Below are positions 20,603-40,731 of a DNA stretch of 64,000 nt, one piece after another (within the stretch, counting starts at the first letter, position 1; each line of letters starts with the position of its first letter). Position numbers and translations under genes: made by a program. The stretch comes from Fluviirhizobium alvei. Lineage in GTDB: Bacteria; Pseudomonadota; Alphaproteobacteria; Rhizobiales; Rhizobiaceae. The notes beneath the pieces were generated by a model. It did no database searches and was not told where the DNA came from. It was given only the letters and a program-made list of their open reading frames with translations. The stretch covers positions 248,001 through 312,000 of the forward strand of contig NZ_JAUOZU010000008.1 in NCBI RefSeq assembly GCF_030551875.1, written 5' to 3'.

Positions 20603-20666
20603 GGGTTTCCTCCTTACGACATGAGTGGGAAAGCTGGTTATTTTATGGTTAACAAATTGTTATTCA

Positions 20667-20731
20667 ACAATATTTTGTGGTGAACAGGTCCAGAACACTG
20701 TGCCAATTCCGATTCGTCGATGATTCGTTCC
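20667..20731 (+). repeat. GATTCGT repeat, copy 1
   Basis: Shares the frame ACAATAT (0), GAAC (+15), GATTCGTC (+44) and GATTCGTT (+55) with the copies at 20960 and 21206. The two GATTCGT boxes at 20711 and 20722 are eleven bases apart, about one helical turn. Confidence 0.75.
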
Positions 20732-20959
20732 GTCTTTATACCGGTACTCGTCGATGTTCCTGCTTTCCCGCCGCAGCGAGATTTCTGTCTGAACATGTAG
20801 AATTCAAATGGGGCCGCCTATGGACATGGTTGGCCTGCCACAGACGCCCAACTCCCGGATCCGTGTTCTTCGAATTGCAACGGTGGCGCCTCCGGCGTCG
20901 CTCTCGTTTTCATGCTGAAAACCACTCAGAAACTCTTATGGTTAATAATTTCATAAAAC

Positions 20960-21024
20960 ACAATATATAGTCGTGAACAAAACGGGAATACAGTGACCAT
21001 TCCGATTCGTCAGCGATTCGTTCA
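20960..21024 (+). repeat. GATTCGT repeat, copy 2
   Basis: ACAATATAT at 20960, GTGAAC at 20973, GATTCG boxes at 21004 and 21015: the same internal spacings as copies 1 and 3. A further single GATTCGTT lies at 21051. Confidence 0.75.
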
Positions 21025-21205
21025 GGGTCGGTTCCGATGAATATCGGCTCGATTCGTTGAGCTTCATTTTTCAATATTTACAATTTATTAACCATGTTTT
21101 CGCTTGCGCTTTGACGGCATTTTTCCCTGTTTTTCCGCGTTTGGGGCTCGGGACGGCCGGATCAGTGAGCTTTTGTCGATTCTTGATCCCGAAACGGCAC
21201 AAACT

Positions 21206-21270
21206 ACAATATATGGTATAGAACGTTTGATGAACGAGATGGAGTCATCGATTCGTCGCCGATTCGTTCC
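21206..21270 (+). repeat. GATTCGT repeat, copy 3
   Basis: ACAATATAT at 21206, GAAC at 21221, GATTCG boxes at 21250 and 21261: the same internal spacings as copies 1 and 2. The overlapping short open frame here is judged spurious. Confidence 0.75.
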
Positions 21271-21408
21271 GAGCCTGTTCCAGCGCCTCCCGGAAAGAGC
21301 AGCATCAGACTTTATGTTGGGGTGCGGCTTGCAATTCCTCCGGCGGGGGTGCATCCATGCCGCCGAAACGATCACGATGCTGGACTGGATAATTTGACCT
21401 CCGATCCC

Positions 21409-24400
21409 ATGATCCTGAGTGGCCGCGGCGTAACCGCGGTTCTCGGCCCGACCAATACCGGCAAGACCCATTATGCCATCGAGCGTATGGTGGCCCATTC
21501 TTCCGGGGTCATTGGCTTGCCGTTGCGCCTTCTGGCGCGTGAGGTCTATGGCCGTGTGGTCGACAAGGTCGGGGTCGCGAATGTGGCGCTGATTACCGGC
21601 GAAGAGAAGATCGCTCCCCCCAATGCGCGTTATTCGGTCTGCACGGTCGAGGCGATGCCCGACGAAACCCGGGCCGCCTTTGTCGCCATCGACGAGGTGC
21701 AGTTGGCAGGCGATCTCGAACGCGGCCACGTCTTTACCGATCGAATTCTGAGACTGCGCGGACGCGAGGAAACGCTGCTTCTCGGATCGGCCACGATGAA
21801 GTCGATCCTCATGCATATCCTGCCGGGCATTCATGTGCTTGAGAGGCCGCGCCTCTCGCAGCTCTTCTATGCCGGCCAGAAGAAGATCACGCGTCTGCCG
21901 CATCGTTCGGTGATCGTCGCCTTCTCCGCCGATGAGGTCTATGCGATTGCCGAGCTGGTCAAGCGCCAGCGCGGCGGCGCCGCTGTCGTGATCGGAGCGC
22001 TCAGCCCCCGCACCCGCAATGCCCAGGTTGCGCTCTACCAGGAGGGCGATGTTGAATATCTGGTGGCGACCGATGCGATCGGCATGGGCCTCAATCTGGA
22101 TGTCGATCACGTCGCCTTTGCCCAGGATCGCAAGTTCGACGGCTTCCAGTATCGCAATCTGAATTCGGGCGAACTCGGCCAGATCGCCGGCCGTGCCGGC
22201 CGCCATACCCGCGATGGCACCTTCGGGGTGACGGGCCACACCCAGCCGTTCGACGATGAAATGGTCGAGCGTATCGAGGCGCATGAGTTCGATCCGGTCA
22301 AGGTCATGCAATGGCGATCGCCCGCGCTCGACTTCTCCTCGCTCGCGTCGCTCCGCAACAGTCTTGATGCGGCGCCGCGGGTTGTGGGTCTCACCAAGGC
22401 CCTTCCGGCGGACGACATGCAGGCTCTCGAGCATCTGTCGCGTTATCCGGACATTTTGGACCTTGCCACAACGCGCGAAAGAGTGGAAAAGCTCTGGGAG
22501 ATTTGTGCACTGCCGGATTACCGCCGGATTACATCGCTCCAGCATTCCGACCTCATCGCGGCAATCTACAAGGATGTCGTGCGAAAGGGTGCTGTCGATG
22601 AATCCTTCATGGCAGAGCAGGTCAGGCGCGCGGACCGGACGGATGGCGAGATTGATACGCTATCGGCCCGTATTGCGCAGATTAGAACATGGACCTATGT
22701 GTCAAACCGGCCGGGCTGGCTGGCAGATCCGGCACACTGGCAGGAAAAAACGCGCGAAATAGAGGATCGCCTCTCCGACGCGCTGCATGAACGGTTGACG
22801 AAACGCTTTGTGGATCGCAGGACGTCTGTGCTCATGAGGCGACTTAGAGAGAATGCTATGCTGGAAGCTGAAATCAGTGTGAATGGCGATGTCTTTGTTG
22901 AAGGGCATCATGTGGGGCAATTGTCGGGCTTCCGGTTTACCTTGGCGAGCACCGCCGATGGTCAGGACCTGAAGGCGGTGGAAAATGCCGCTGGCAAGGC
23001 GCTTGCGCTCGAGTTCGAAGCGCGCGCCGCGCGGCTTCATGCTGCCGGCAATGGCGATCTCGCGATCGGCAGCGATGGTGTCGTGCGCTGGGTAGGCGAG
23101 CCGATCGCCCGTCTCGCCGCATCCGATCACATCATGCGTCCGCGCGTCATCCTGCTGGCTGACGAACTTCTGTCCGGTCATGCCCGCGAGCATGTTCAGG
23201 CGCGCATCGAACGTTTCGTCAATCATCATATTGCTACGGTCCTCAAGCCGCTTGACGATCTGACGCGTGCGGAAGATCTGCAGGGCATTTCCAAGGGAAT
23301 TGCCTACCAGATCGCTGAAAACCTCGGCGTGCTCTTCCGTCGCGACGTTGCCGATGATGTCAAGGCGCTCGACCAGGACGGCCGCGCTTCCCTGCGCAAG
23401 TATGGTATCCGTTTTGGCGCCTACCACATCTTCATGCCAGCACTTCTGAAGCCGGCGCCGGCCGAACTGATTACCCTGCTCTGGGCGCTGAAGAACGACA
23501 TGATGGCAAGCCCCGGCTATGGCGATCTCATTCCTGCGCTCGCCGCCGGTCGCACGTCGATCGTGACCGATCCGAGCTTCGAACGCGACTTTTACAAACT
23601 GGCCGGTTTCCGGTTCCTGGGCAAGCGGGCGGTGCGCATCGATATTCTCGAGCGTCTGGCCGACATTATCCGGCCGCTGCTGCAATGGAAGCCGGGTTCG
23701 GCTGCGCGTCCTGACGGCGCCTATGATGGCCGCCGCTTCACCACGACGCCTGCAATGCTCTCGATCCTTGGCGCCACGGCCGATGATATCGAGGAAATCC
23801 TGAAGGGCCTCGGTTATCGCGCCGACAGCGTCAAGGCGGAAGAGGCTGCAGCTCACCTTGCGGCGATGGCTCCGGCTGCGCCCGGGGCTGCGGCATCGGA
23901 AGAAAAGGCACCCGCCGAAGGCGCTGAGGCCGAAGCAGACAGCAGCGAGACCACCGAAGTGGAGTCCGTTGCAGTCGAACCGGTCGAGGCTCCTGCTATT
24001 GACCAGGCTGCTGCCGAGCCGGTCGAAGAGAAGCGCGTCCTCCTATGGCGTCCGGGTGGCGGCAAGCCGCAGAATGAGCGCGGCCGCGAACAGGGCCAAC
24101 GCGAACAGGGCCAGCGTCGCGAACGCAGCGGCGAGCAGCCGCATGGCCGCCGCAATGACAATCGCCAGGGTCAGCCGAACGGTAATCGGGGCGAGGAAAA
24201 GCGCGAAGGCCGCAAGGACAATCGCGATGGTCATCGGGACGGGCGGGGCGGCGAGCGTGGCGATAGGCCACCGCGCAACGACCAGCGCCAGGATCGTTCC
24301 GACCGTCCGCAAGCGCCGCGTCGTGACAACAAGGGCAAGCCCGCACAGCCGGCTCATTTTGAAGCCAAGCCGCGCAAGGACAAGCCGATGGATCCGGATT

Positions 24401-24447
24401 CGCCCTTCGCAAAACTCGCGATCCTGAAGGAACAGATGAAGAAGTAA
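21409..24447 (+). CDS. SUV3-like ATP-dependent RNA helicase with RG-rich C-terminal tail
   Basis: Superfamily 2 helicase close to the mitochondrial SUV3 type found in alphaproteobacteria, probably acting in RNA unwinding or decay. Walker A GPTNTGKTHYAIERM is near residues 12-26, the DEVQ box near 95, SATM near 125, and motif [12 protein letters not shown] near 258. A long middle region is followed by an acidic alanine-rich linker (about 815-875). Last comes a roughly 130-residue tail rich in Arg, Gly, Asn and Gln (GREQGQREQGQRRERSGEQP), a likely unstructured RNA-binding arm. The 1012-residue length assumes ATG 21409; TTG 21394 is possible. An S4 RNA-binding gene follows after one base. Confidence 0.88.
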   Translation: MILSGRGVTAVLGPTNTGKTHYAIERMVAHSSGVIGLPLRLLAREVYGRVVDKVGVANVALITGEEKIAPPNARYSVCTVEAMPDETRAAFVAIDEVQLAGDLERGHVFTDRILRLRGREETLLLGSATMKSILMHILPGIHVLERPRLSQLFYAGQKKITRLPHRSVIVAFSADEVYAIAELVKRQRGGAAVVIGALSPRTRNAQVALYQEGDVEYLVATDAIGMGLNLDVDHVAFAQDRKFDGFQYRNLNSGELGQIAGRAGRHTRDGTFGVTGHTQPFDDEMVERIEAHEFDPVKVMQWRSPALDFSSLASLRNSLDAAPRVVGLTKALPADDMQALEHLSRYPDILDLATTRERVEKLWEICALPDYRRITSLQHSDLIAAIYKDVVRKGAVDESFMAEQVRRADRTDGEIDTLSARIAQIRTWTYVSNRPGWLADPAHWQEKTREIEDRLSDALHERLTKRFVDRRTSVLMRRLRENAMLEAEISVNGDVFVEGHHVGQLSGFRFTLASTADGQDLKAVENAAGKALALEFEARAARLHAAGNGDLAIGSDGVVRWVGEPIARLAASDHIMRPRVILLADELLSGHAREHVQARIERFVNHHIATVLKPLDDLTRAEDLQGISKGIAYQIAENLGVLFRRDVADDVKALDQDGRASLRKYGIRFGAYHIFMPALLKPAPAELITLLWALKNDMMASPGYGDLIPALAAGRTSIVTDPSFERDFYKLAGFRFLGKRAVRIDILERLADIIRPLLQWKPGSAARPDGAYDGRRFTTTPAMLSILGATADDIEEILKGLGYRADSVKAEEAAAHLAAMAPAAPGAAASEEKAPAEGAEAEADSSETTEVESVAVEPVEAPAIDQAAAEPVEEKRVLLWRPGGGKPQNERGREQGQREQGQRRERSGEQPHGRRNDNRQGQPNGNRGEEKREGRKDNRDGHRDGRGGERGDRPPRNDQRQDRSDRPQAPRRDNKGKPAQPAHFEAKPRKDKPMDPDSPFAKLAILKEQMKK

Positions 24448-40501: not shown

Positions 40502-40731
40502 GCCGAAATGCTGCAAGGCTTGACATTGGCGGGCATTTGATGTTTACCCCCCGCCAATCTGCCCGTCCGTAACAGGTGACAGCAGCCGACCGGGACGCGT
40601 CTTGACGTCGATCCCGGAGGTCAACATCCGACAGCGCGTTGCGCCCTCGGGTGCTTTTCGGCTTATGCCCTTGTTTTCGGCGGCAAGGATACCGATGTTC
40701 CGGGAAACTCCCTGGGCAAGAGGATAAATGG
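40502..40731. other. Region upstream of ffh with two dyads
   Basis: About 230 bases without a credible gene. It holds ATTGGCGGG-N16-CCCGCCAAT (40525-40558) after the sulfotransferase gene and a second stem based on CCGGGA and TCCCGG (40590-40617) with a CGTC/GACG inner stem. Neither is followed by a T-run. The ffh promoter is expected here. Confidence 0.35.

Follow-up and report, generated by a model that had tools for sequence, protein, structure and literature searches.

The array in front of the helicase gene

The window, by which we mean the whole stretch of 64,000 nucleotides analysed in this work, belongs to a host genome of 5.2 Mb in 46 contigs, in which it spans 248001-312000 of contig 45. 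It carries an intergenic gap which lies between a minus-strand gene with a RibD_C domain and the gene of a Suv3-type helicase, and on the 3' side the helicase gene is followed by an S4-domain gene, then an FdxA-type gene and then a CarD-domain gene. The first-pass annotation had described three equally built copies of a repeat in this gap, and we found the positions and the identical spacings as claimed. The copies have ACAATAT at 20667, 20960 and 21206, and the composite pattern ACAATAT-N8-GAAC-N25-GATTCGT-N4-GATTCGTT has exactly three matches in the 64-kb window and none on its opposite strand. A repeat search paired units 1 and 2 over 88 nt at 74% and recovered all three units as shorter families. 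The features of the array are collected in Table 1. As for the LexA-type boxes, unit 1 carries the left one, unit 2 the right one and unit 3 both, and a second NrdR box was found in none of the three units of the window, where three to four of the six core letters differ.

Table 1. Coordinates of the array, its predicted sites and the neighbouring helicase gene
Feature	Positions	Strand	Detail
Array-bearing gap	20603..21408		RibD_C-domain gene to helicase gene
Unit 1	20633..20752	+	upstream type; -78..+41 around GATTCGTC
Unit 2	20926..21045	+	upstream type
Unit 3	21172..21291	+	helicase-proximal type
Unit 1, CtrA-type half-site	20645..20652	-	TTAACCAT
Unit 1, NrdR-type palindrome core	20668..20677		C.A.AT.T.G, 0 mismatches; 31 bp upstream 4/6 core letters differ
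Unit 1, LexA-type box	20682..20696	+	GAAC-N7-GAAC
Unit 1, YGATTCG pair, CcrM/GcrA-type	20710..20730	+	GATTCGTC at 20711, GATTCGTTC at 20722
Unit 1, degenerate LexA-type box	20727..20741	+	GTTC-N7-ATAC
Unit 2, CtrA-type half-site	20938..20945	-	TTAACCAT
Unit 2, NrdR-type core	20961..20970		0 mismatches; no second box, 4/6 differ
Unit 2, imperfect LexA-type box	20975..20989	+	GAAC-N7-GAAT
Unit 2, YGATTCG pair	21003..21023	+	at 21004 and 21015
Unit 2, LexA-type box	21020..21034	+	GTTC-N7-GTTC
Unit 3, NrdR-type core	21207..21216		0 mismatches; second box degenerate, 3/6 differ
Unit 3, LexA-type box	21221..21235	+	GAAC-N7-GAAC
Unit 3, additional CcrM site	21242..21246		GAGTC at -8, usual in proximal units
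Unit 3, YGATTCG pair	21249..21269	+	at 21250 and 21261
Unit 3, LexA-type box	21266..21280	+	GTTC-N7-GTTC
Suv3-type helicase gene	21409..24447	+	PF22527 DEXQc_Suv3, PF00271 Helicase_C; putative target

Is the array richer in its motifs than its composition would predict? The annotation had named a frequency no higher than in shuffled sequence as a result that would speak against it; GATTCG occurs seven times in 20603-21408, compared with a mean of 0.65 and a maximum of 5 in 2000 dinucleotide shuffles. The GANTC sites give a less uniform picture. Their number in the gap, nine, was correct, but the expectation of about two depends on the yardstick, for the gap shuffles yield 4.6, with nine or more in 69 of the 2000. 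The density on the array is 14 per kb against 1.66 per kb for the whole window, and sliding windows of 642 bp with at least nine GANTC sites are found in only 4 of 3168 cases, every one of them on the array. The enrichment is thus high in relation to the window and only moderate in relation to the gap shuffles. The near CtrA box was likewise a claim that stood in part: ATGGTTAA, with the TTAACCAT that we label a CtrA-type half-site, is present in window units 1 and 2, but GGTTAA was seen in only 32 of 128 upstream and none of 123 proximal units among the matches listed. Elsewhere in the window, the only match at the Rfam gathering level was to the ffh small RNA family (RF01793), at 40610-40661 (+) with 67.3 bits.

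Conservation and anatomy of the unit

The element of which the window has three copies is composite and roughly 115 bp long. When 61 genomes were searched at the DNA level, 22 gave matches, mostly as unit-length pieces, and at this sensitivity none of the 22 was outside the own family. Among the matching contigs of this study are ones from Rhizobium, Ensifer, Mesorhizobium, Brucella, Bartonella and others. From the loci found by BLAST we took those with a core of at most three mismatches and omitted nine, namely eight duplicates shifted by 11 bp and L022, which fell to a first-base filter. The resulting 50 distinct units from 22 genomes align without gaps around the core, although a MAFFT alignment places one-base gaps in a few of them, so the boxes and spacings whose loss in close relatives had been named as a refutation are kept. 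With the first G of GATTCGTC as position 0, GATTCGTC stands at 0 in 48 of these units, GAAC at -29 in 48 and GTTC at +16 in 47, while C.A.AT.T.G begins at -43 in 43 (45 if one mismatch is allowed). GATTCG is found at 0 in 49 and at +11 in 42, and positions -1 and +10 are C or T in all 50.

The search in relatives that the annotation had proposed was also positive on a wider scale: the paired core with at most one mismatch occurs in 126 of 199 genomes of the own family, whereas the reversed-pattern control gave 0 among the matches listed. For more distant genomes we used a sequence-only model of the unit with 120 positions, trained on the 50 units, whose matches lean toward units like those of the training set. 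It matched 113 of 150 genomes of the own order (E<=0.01) and 18 of 190 in the class (E<=0.001), 15 of the latter outside the own order. In the ten alignments listed from other orders, the first YGATTCG was kept in 10/10, as may be expected of a model trained on units having YGATTCG, the second GATTC in 4/10 and its GTTC in 7/10. The pairing of GATTCGT boxes at 11 bp, which the annotation had emphasized, is therefore present but partly mirrors the 11-bp phase of GTTC-N7-GTTC. One match of the model, L165 from Arthrobacter, we rejected as a chance similarity covering only about 30 model positions and lacking the helicase.

In the own genome the perfect paired GATTCG core was found at the three places of the array only; 16 further cores have two or three mismatches, compared with four matches of the reversed pattern. 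The whole-unit model added two weak partial matches (E 0.004 and 0.07), a fourth and a fifth which we did not score as units, the fourth being inside a reading frame. The match with E 0.07 (L064/L247, G000:C14:69010-69049) has GATTCGTCAGTGATTCATTA upstream of a membrane-sensor-like reading frame. Another genome, G006, has two copies of the array, inverted relative to each other and both inside a 5-kb stretch of a single contig (G006:C24:414442-419248), perhaps as an assembly artefact; this assembly is 84% complete and 6% contaminated.

Comparison of 123 helicase-proximal and 128 upstream units allowed us to describe two types. Most of these units came from a scan which required both core boxes, so the constancy of the core in this set is not evidence and only the other boxes count. 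All counts in this and the next two sentences are among the matches listed. GTTC-N7-GTTC was found in 115 of the 123 proximal units against 27 of the 128 upstream ones, and the NrdR-type core at -43 to -34, with at most one mismatch, in 111 and 102, respectively. The second C.A.AT.T.G of proximal units starts at -74, that is 31 bp away, and with at most two mismatches it was present at this distance in 97 of 123, the other spacings between 26 and 37 bp giving 0-16, whereas upstream units have it at 31 bp in 26 of 128 and at 29 bp in 22. Together with the distribution of GGTTAA, these counts show that proximal and upstream units differ in signature across genera, and such separate signatures indicate that the duplication is old.

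The LexA-type elements consist of GAAC at -29 with GAA at -18 and of GTTC at +16 and +27. The left box often takes the form GAAC-N7-GAAT (GAATC in 72 and GAAC in 24 of the 123 proximal units, among the matches listed), and GANTC sites of the same units, on the same basis, are concentrated at -78 (90), -18 (73), -8 (99) and +22 (50). A consensus scan of 121 loci did not find a consensus sigma-70 promoter at a fixed place, which is compatible with a promoter that depends on an activator. We also noted words resembling DnaA boxes (TGTGGATAA and kin), of which there are 19 in 86 kb of array and 12 in 723 kb elsewhere, a density about 13 times higher. They lie 54-99 bp before some units, often at -54, -76, -87 and -99, and the loci that have them include L092, L102, L118, L123, L134, L141, L151 and L178.

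Two further candidates were rejected. For a leader peptide the rejection applies to two of the three frames, each of which TGA closes in roughly one proximal unit in three; this TGA arises from T at -1 in 42 and at +10 in 37 of 123, among the matches listed. The general-stress promoter has the consensus GGAAC-N16/17-CGTT, and by eye the spacing of the boxes does not agree with it.

Association of the units with the helicase

If the units are regulatory, which gene do they serve? We collected 137 locus records with the N-terminus of the helicase, several of them from one genome in some cases. One, two, three and four units were present in 28, 73, 30 and 6 records, and within 3 kb no unit lay on the reverse strand in any of the 137. 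The distance from the last unit to the helicase start codon was 160-250 bp in 117 records, with a range of 75-794 bp. Downstream, a helicase on the same strand was found in 24 of the 25 best own-order loci from other families, and 14 of 16 loci from other orders showed the same arrangement. The left neighbours vary, with phbAB-like genes in many loci of the family and other genes elsewhere, and the units stay beside the helicase and on its strand when the left neighbour differs. We conclude that the cis-regulatory, helicase-linked nature of the units is well supported.

The opposite question, whether the helicase always has a unit, received a different answer. Among 24 of the 73 family genomes without the core pattern which we tested, 20 possess the helicase, and the model found a unit at 6 of these 20 loci and none at the other 14. 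Of the 37 order genomes that the model did not match, 20 were tested; 18 of these possess the helicase and 17 of the 18 have no detectable unit, the remaining one showing a weak partial match. The four family genomes that lack the helicase are small (1.1-2.6 Mb). Several lineages thus retain the helicase without a detectable unit, which counts against a strict tie.

Some single records are worth mentioning. Some other families also have units at second places that do not lie immediately before the helicase (L249, L251, L252, L254-L256, L259 and L260), which speaks against the units as an operator of the helicase. Model matches without the helicase were seen at L133, L149 and L154; here and at the second places the neighbours were inspected as reading frames. 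The records from Methylopila and Chelatococcus (L133 and L154) show an incomplete unit whose GAACGAATC/GATTCGTTC is inverted, close to a different gene and in a stretch without the helicase. Finally, record L116, titled Marinicella sp. W31, encodes a helicase about 85% identical to that of the window, and its name may be wrong.

In the chromosome, the array lies 47-483 kb from hemE, which we take as a marker of the replication origin, in 11 of 11 genomes inspected, but these are all related and share a common gene order, so the distances are not independent.

Predicted inputs of the units and competing readings

The annotation had left open whether the repeats are a methylation-sensitive array controlling the helicase, a family of small-RNA promoters or the operator of an unknown regulator. 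The first option fits best, as the units track the helicase and YGATTCG is kept, and the last holds only in part, since the majority of the conserved boxes look like binding sites of regulators that are known but that the annotation had not named (LexA, NrdR). On balance we lean toward a tandem array of composite operator units which would control the helicase through NrdR, LexA and CcrM/GcrA. The contacts with NrdR, LexA and GcrA are predicted from the geometry of the motifs, and the start site, the sign of each input and the role of the helicase are likewise inferred.

According to this model, NrdR loaded with dATP/ATP would repress from its predicted box when dNTPs are plentiful, and the predicted LexA-type boxes, GAAC-N7-GAA(C/T) and GTTC-N7-GTTC, would be cleared after DNA damage. 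At the YGATTCG CcrM site within the GANTC cluster, the action of GcrA with sigma-70 polymerase may depend on methylation, and when this region near the origin is replicated its methylation would change and with it the binding of GcrA. Sites of repressor type (NrdR, LexA) and of activator type (CcrM/GcrA) would thus be adjacent or overlapping, in fixed phase and repeated. High dATP and intact DNA would keep the helicase low, and its level would be highest while DNA is replicated or damaged and dNTPs are short. Where upstream units have CtrA half-sites, the cell cycle may be a further input.

How well do the boxes agree with known sites? For NrdR, the cryo-EM work on its complex with DNA describes conserved GC pairs at 9/18 in box 1 and 40/49 in box 2, with the boxes about three turns apart. 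NrdR-box pairs, as at nrdRJ of S. coelicolor and nrdJ of the relatives, share with the units a C and a G that are 9 apart in the palindrome and, with most proximal units of relatives, boxes 31 bp apart. The differences are that the target here is a helicase and not a reductase, NrdR being described as specific for ribonucleotide reductase (RNR) genes in the literature we consulted, and that the pair is found only in proximal units of relatives, the window units being single-boxed. As a control we scanned 17 of 30 nrdJ-type loci, and a box pair at 31 bp with at most one mismatch was present in 12 of the 17, compared with three in 763,610 background bases. Many nrdJ loci (L044, on the reverse strand, and others) also have a further C.A.AT.T.G about 245 bp upstream, 31 bp before CTTGAC.

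The published LexA box of Alphaproteobacteria is given as GTTC-N7-GTTC. The units resemble LexA/SOS operators of this class in having GTTC-N7-GTTC and GAAC-N7-GAA at fixed places, and differ from them in that each unit has two oppositely oriented boxes and the units are in tandem. Upstream of recA in the relatives (14 of 15 loci were scanned), a perfect GAAC-N7-GAAC was found at 0 of 14, and 12 of 14 have GAACAAA-N4-GTAC, with one mismatch allowed, which resembles the LexA-type boxes of the units but is different from them. The count of GTTC-N7-GTTC in the own genome (190, and 99 for the reversed pattern) was too unspecific and was dropped as evidence.

For GcrA an extended motif TGATTCG / YGAKTCK has been described, and the same article reports that a preference for it was not found in Brevundimonas (PMC7987155). 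The units share with CcrM/GcrA promoters such as ctrA P1 of Caulobacter the extended YGATTCG motif and a cluster of GANTC sites; they differ in that there are up to six GANTC sites per unit and no sigma-70 promoter is visible at a fixed distance. GcrA proteins, that of S. meliloti among them, are reported to bind in a methylation-dependent manner, and the time spent hemimethylated is reported to be linked to the distance from the origin (PMC3667746). In growing Ensifer, GANTC methylation is described as rising from ori to ter (PMC8725594), and hypomethylated GANTC sites of S. meliloti as shielded by bound protein (PMC5172544). Related datasets are GcrA ChIP-seq (PMC6813329), CtrA (PMC4433202) and start sites (PMC3616915).

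Could the array still be an operator of the helicase but be bound mostly by other proteins, its likeness to LexA, NrdR and GcrA sites being partly incidental? The binder might then be a single regulator that is so far uncharacterised, or a response regulator of the OmpR type on the repeats TTCGTC/TTCGTTC spaced by 11 bp. We consider this rather unlikely, although it would explain why GATTCGTC-N3-GATTCGTTC varies less than LexA or GcrA motifs alone would demand (GATTCGTC in 48/50), why GAAC-N7-GAAC is imperfect in many units and why upstream units are without the NrdR pair. It accords poorly with the 31-bp NrdR geometry, which is backed by the nrdJ control, with the presence of GTTC-N7-GTTC in almost all listed proximal units, and with the units of other orders, which lose the second GATTC and keep its GTTC more often.

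A chromosomal titration or timing site close to the origin, with the helicase merely adjacent, appears improbable to us. The model for such a site is datA of E. coli, a multi-site cluster near, but away from, the origin. The array is like datA in being a multi-site cluster near the origin, and the distances from hemE, the several units with their higher density of DnaA-like words and the missing fixed promoter would all suit this explanation. Unlike datA, it is bound to one gene and one strand, as the loci with exchanged left neighbours demonstrate, and the DnaA-like words are present in some loci only, most having none; the relatedness of the 11 genomes lessens the weight of the hemE distances.

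Tandem copies in an intergenic gap and a short conserved core could also belong to a tandem family of small RNAs in which each unit is a promoter with its start, the remaining option of the annotation, which the evidence made very improbable. Consensus folding of the 50 units gave 0 conserved base pairs, and terminator-like sites follow 21 of 252 units, compared with 15 for the reverse strand and 13 for shuffled sequence. Because of the absence of conserved RNA pairs and of a clear excess of terminators, we regard the units as DNA sites and not as small-RNA genes. In addition, the region +42 to +59 has no conserved positions and Rfam gave a single sub-threshold chance match in the gap. We also compared the units with the NfeR1/alpha-r14 small-RNA promoters of rhizobia, which likewise lie in intergenic regions of rhizobia and have a conserved motif upstream. 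NfeR1 is described with the motif TGCA-N6-GCAT and an RNA with three CCUCCUCCC hairpins, and this candidate was rejected as motif and RNA both differ, the units here being without RNA structure. A dispersed or mobile repeat that landed here by chance is barely conceivable: two to four similar copies do occur in one gap, far apart in some genomes, but the own genome has no other good copies, proximal and upstream units have their separate signatures and a plasmid search gave no match.

We return to the composite operator for NrdR, LexA and GcrA. Each kind of site is already known; for their combination, the tandem units and the helicase as target we found no description in the open-licence papers searched, and the article that compares GcrA proteins (PMC7987155) does not use the word 'helicase' in its main text. 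As a wider and more tentative proposal, which we put forward as a possibility, the array may be an ancient tandem integrator operator. NrdR as a sensor of dNTPs, LexA as a sensor of damage and GcrA as a reader of methylation would dock on it in a fixed helical phase, and some lineages would have CtrA half-sites or DnaA-like boxes in addition. The NrdR network would then include this helicase as a conserved member outside RNR, and in Alphaproteobacteria the helicase gene would count among those for replication stress.

If the composite operator is real, a single DNA element would couple an uncharacterised helicase to the level of dNTPs, to damage of the DNA and to replication-dependent methylation, and the reach of NrdR would extend to a non-RNR gene across many families. 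It would also predict when the helicase is needed, making the function of this protein testable. The array would also be a natural, deeply conserved system in which to study how methylation-dependent GcrA competes with repressors where GANTC and GTTC sites overlap.
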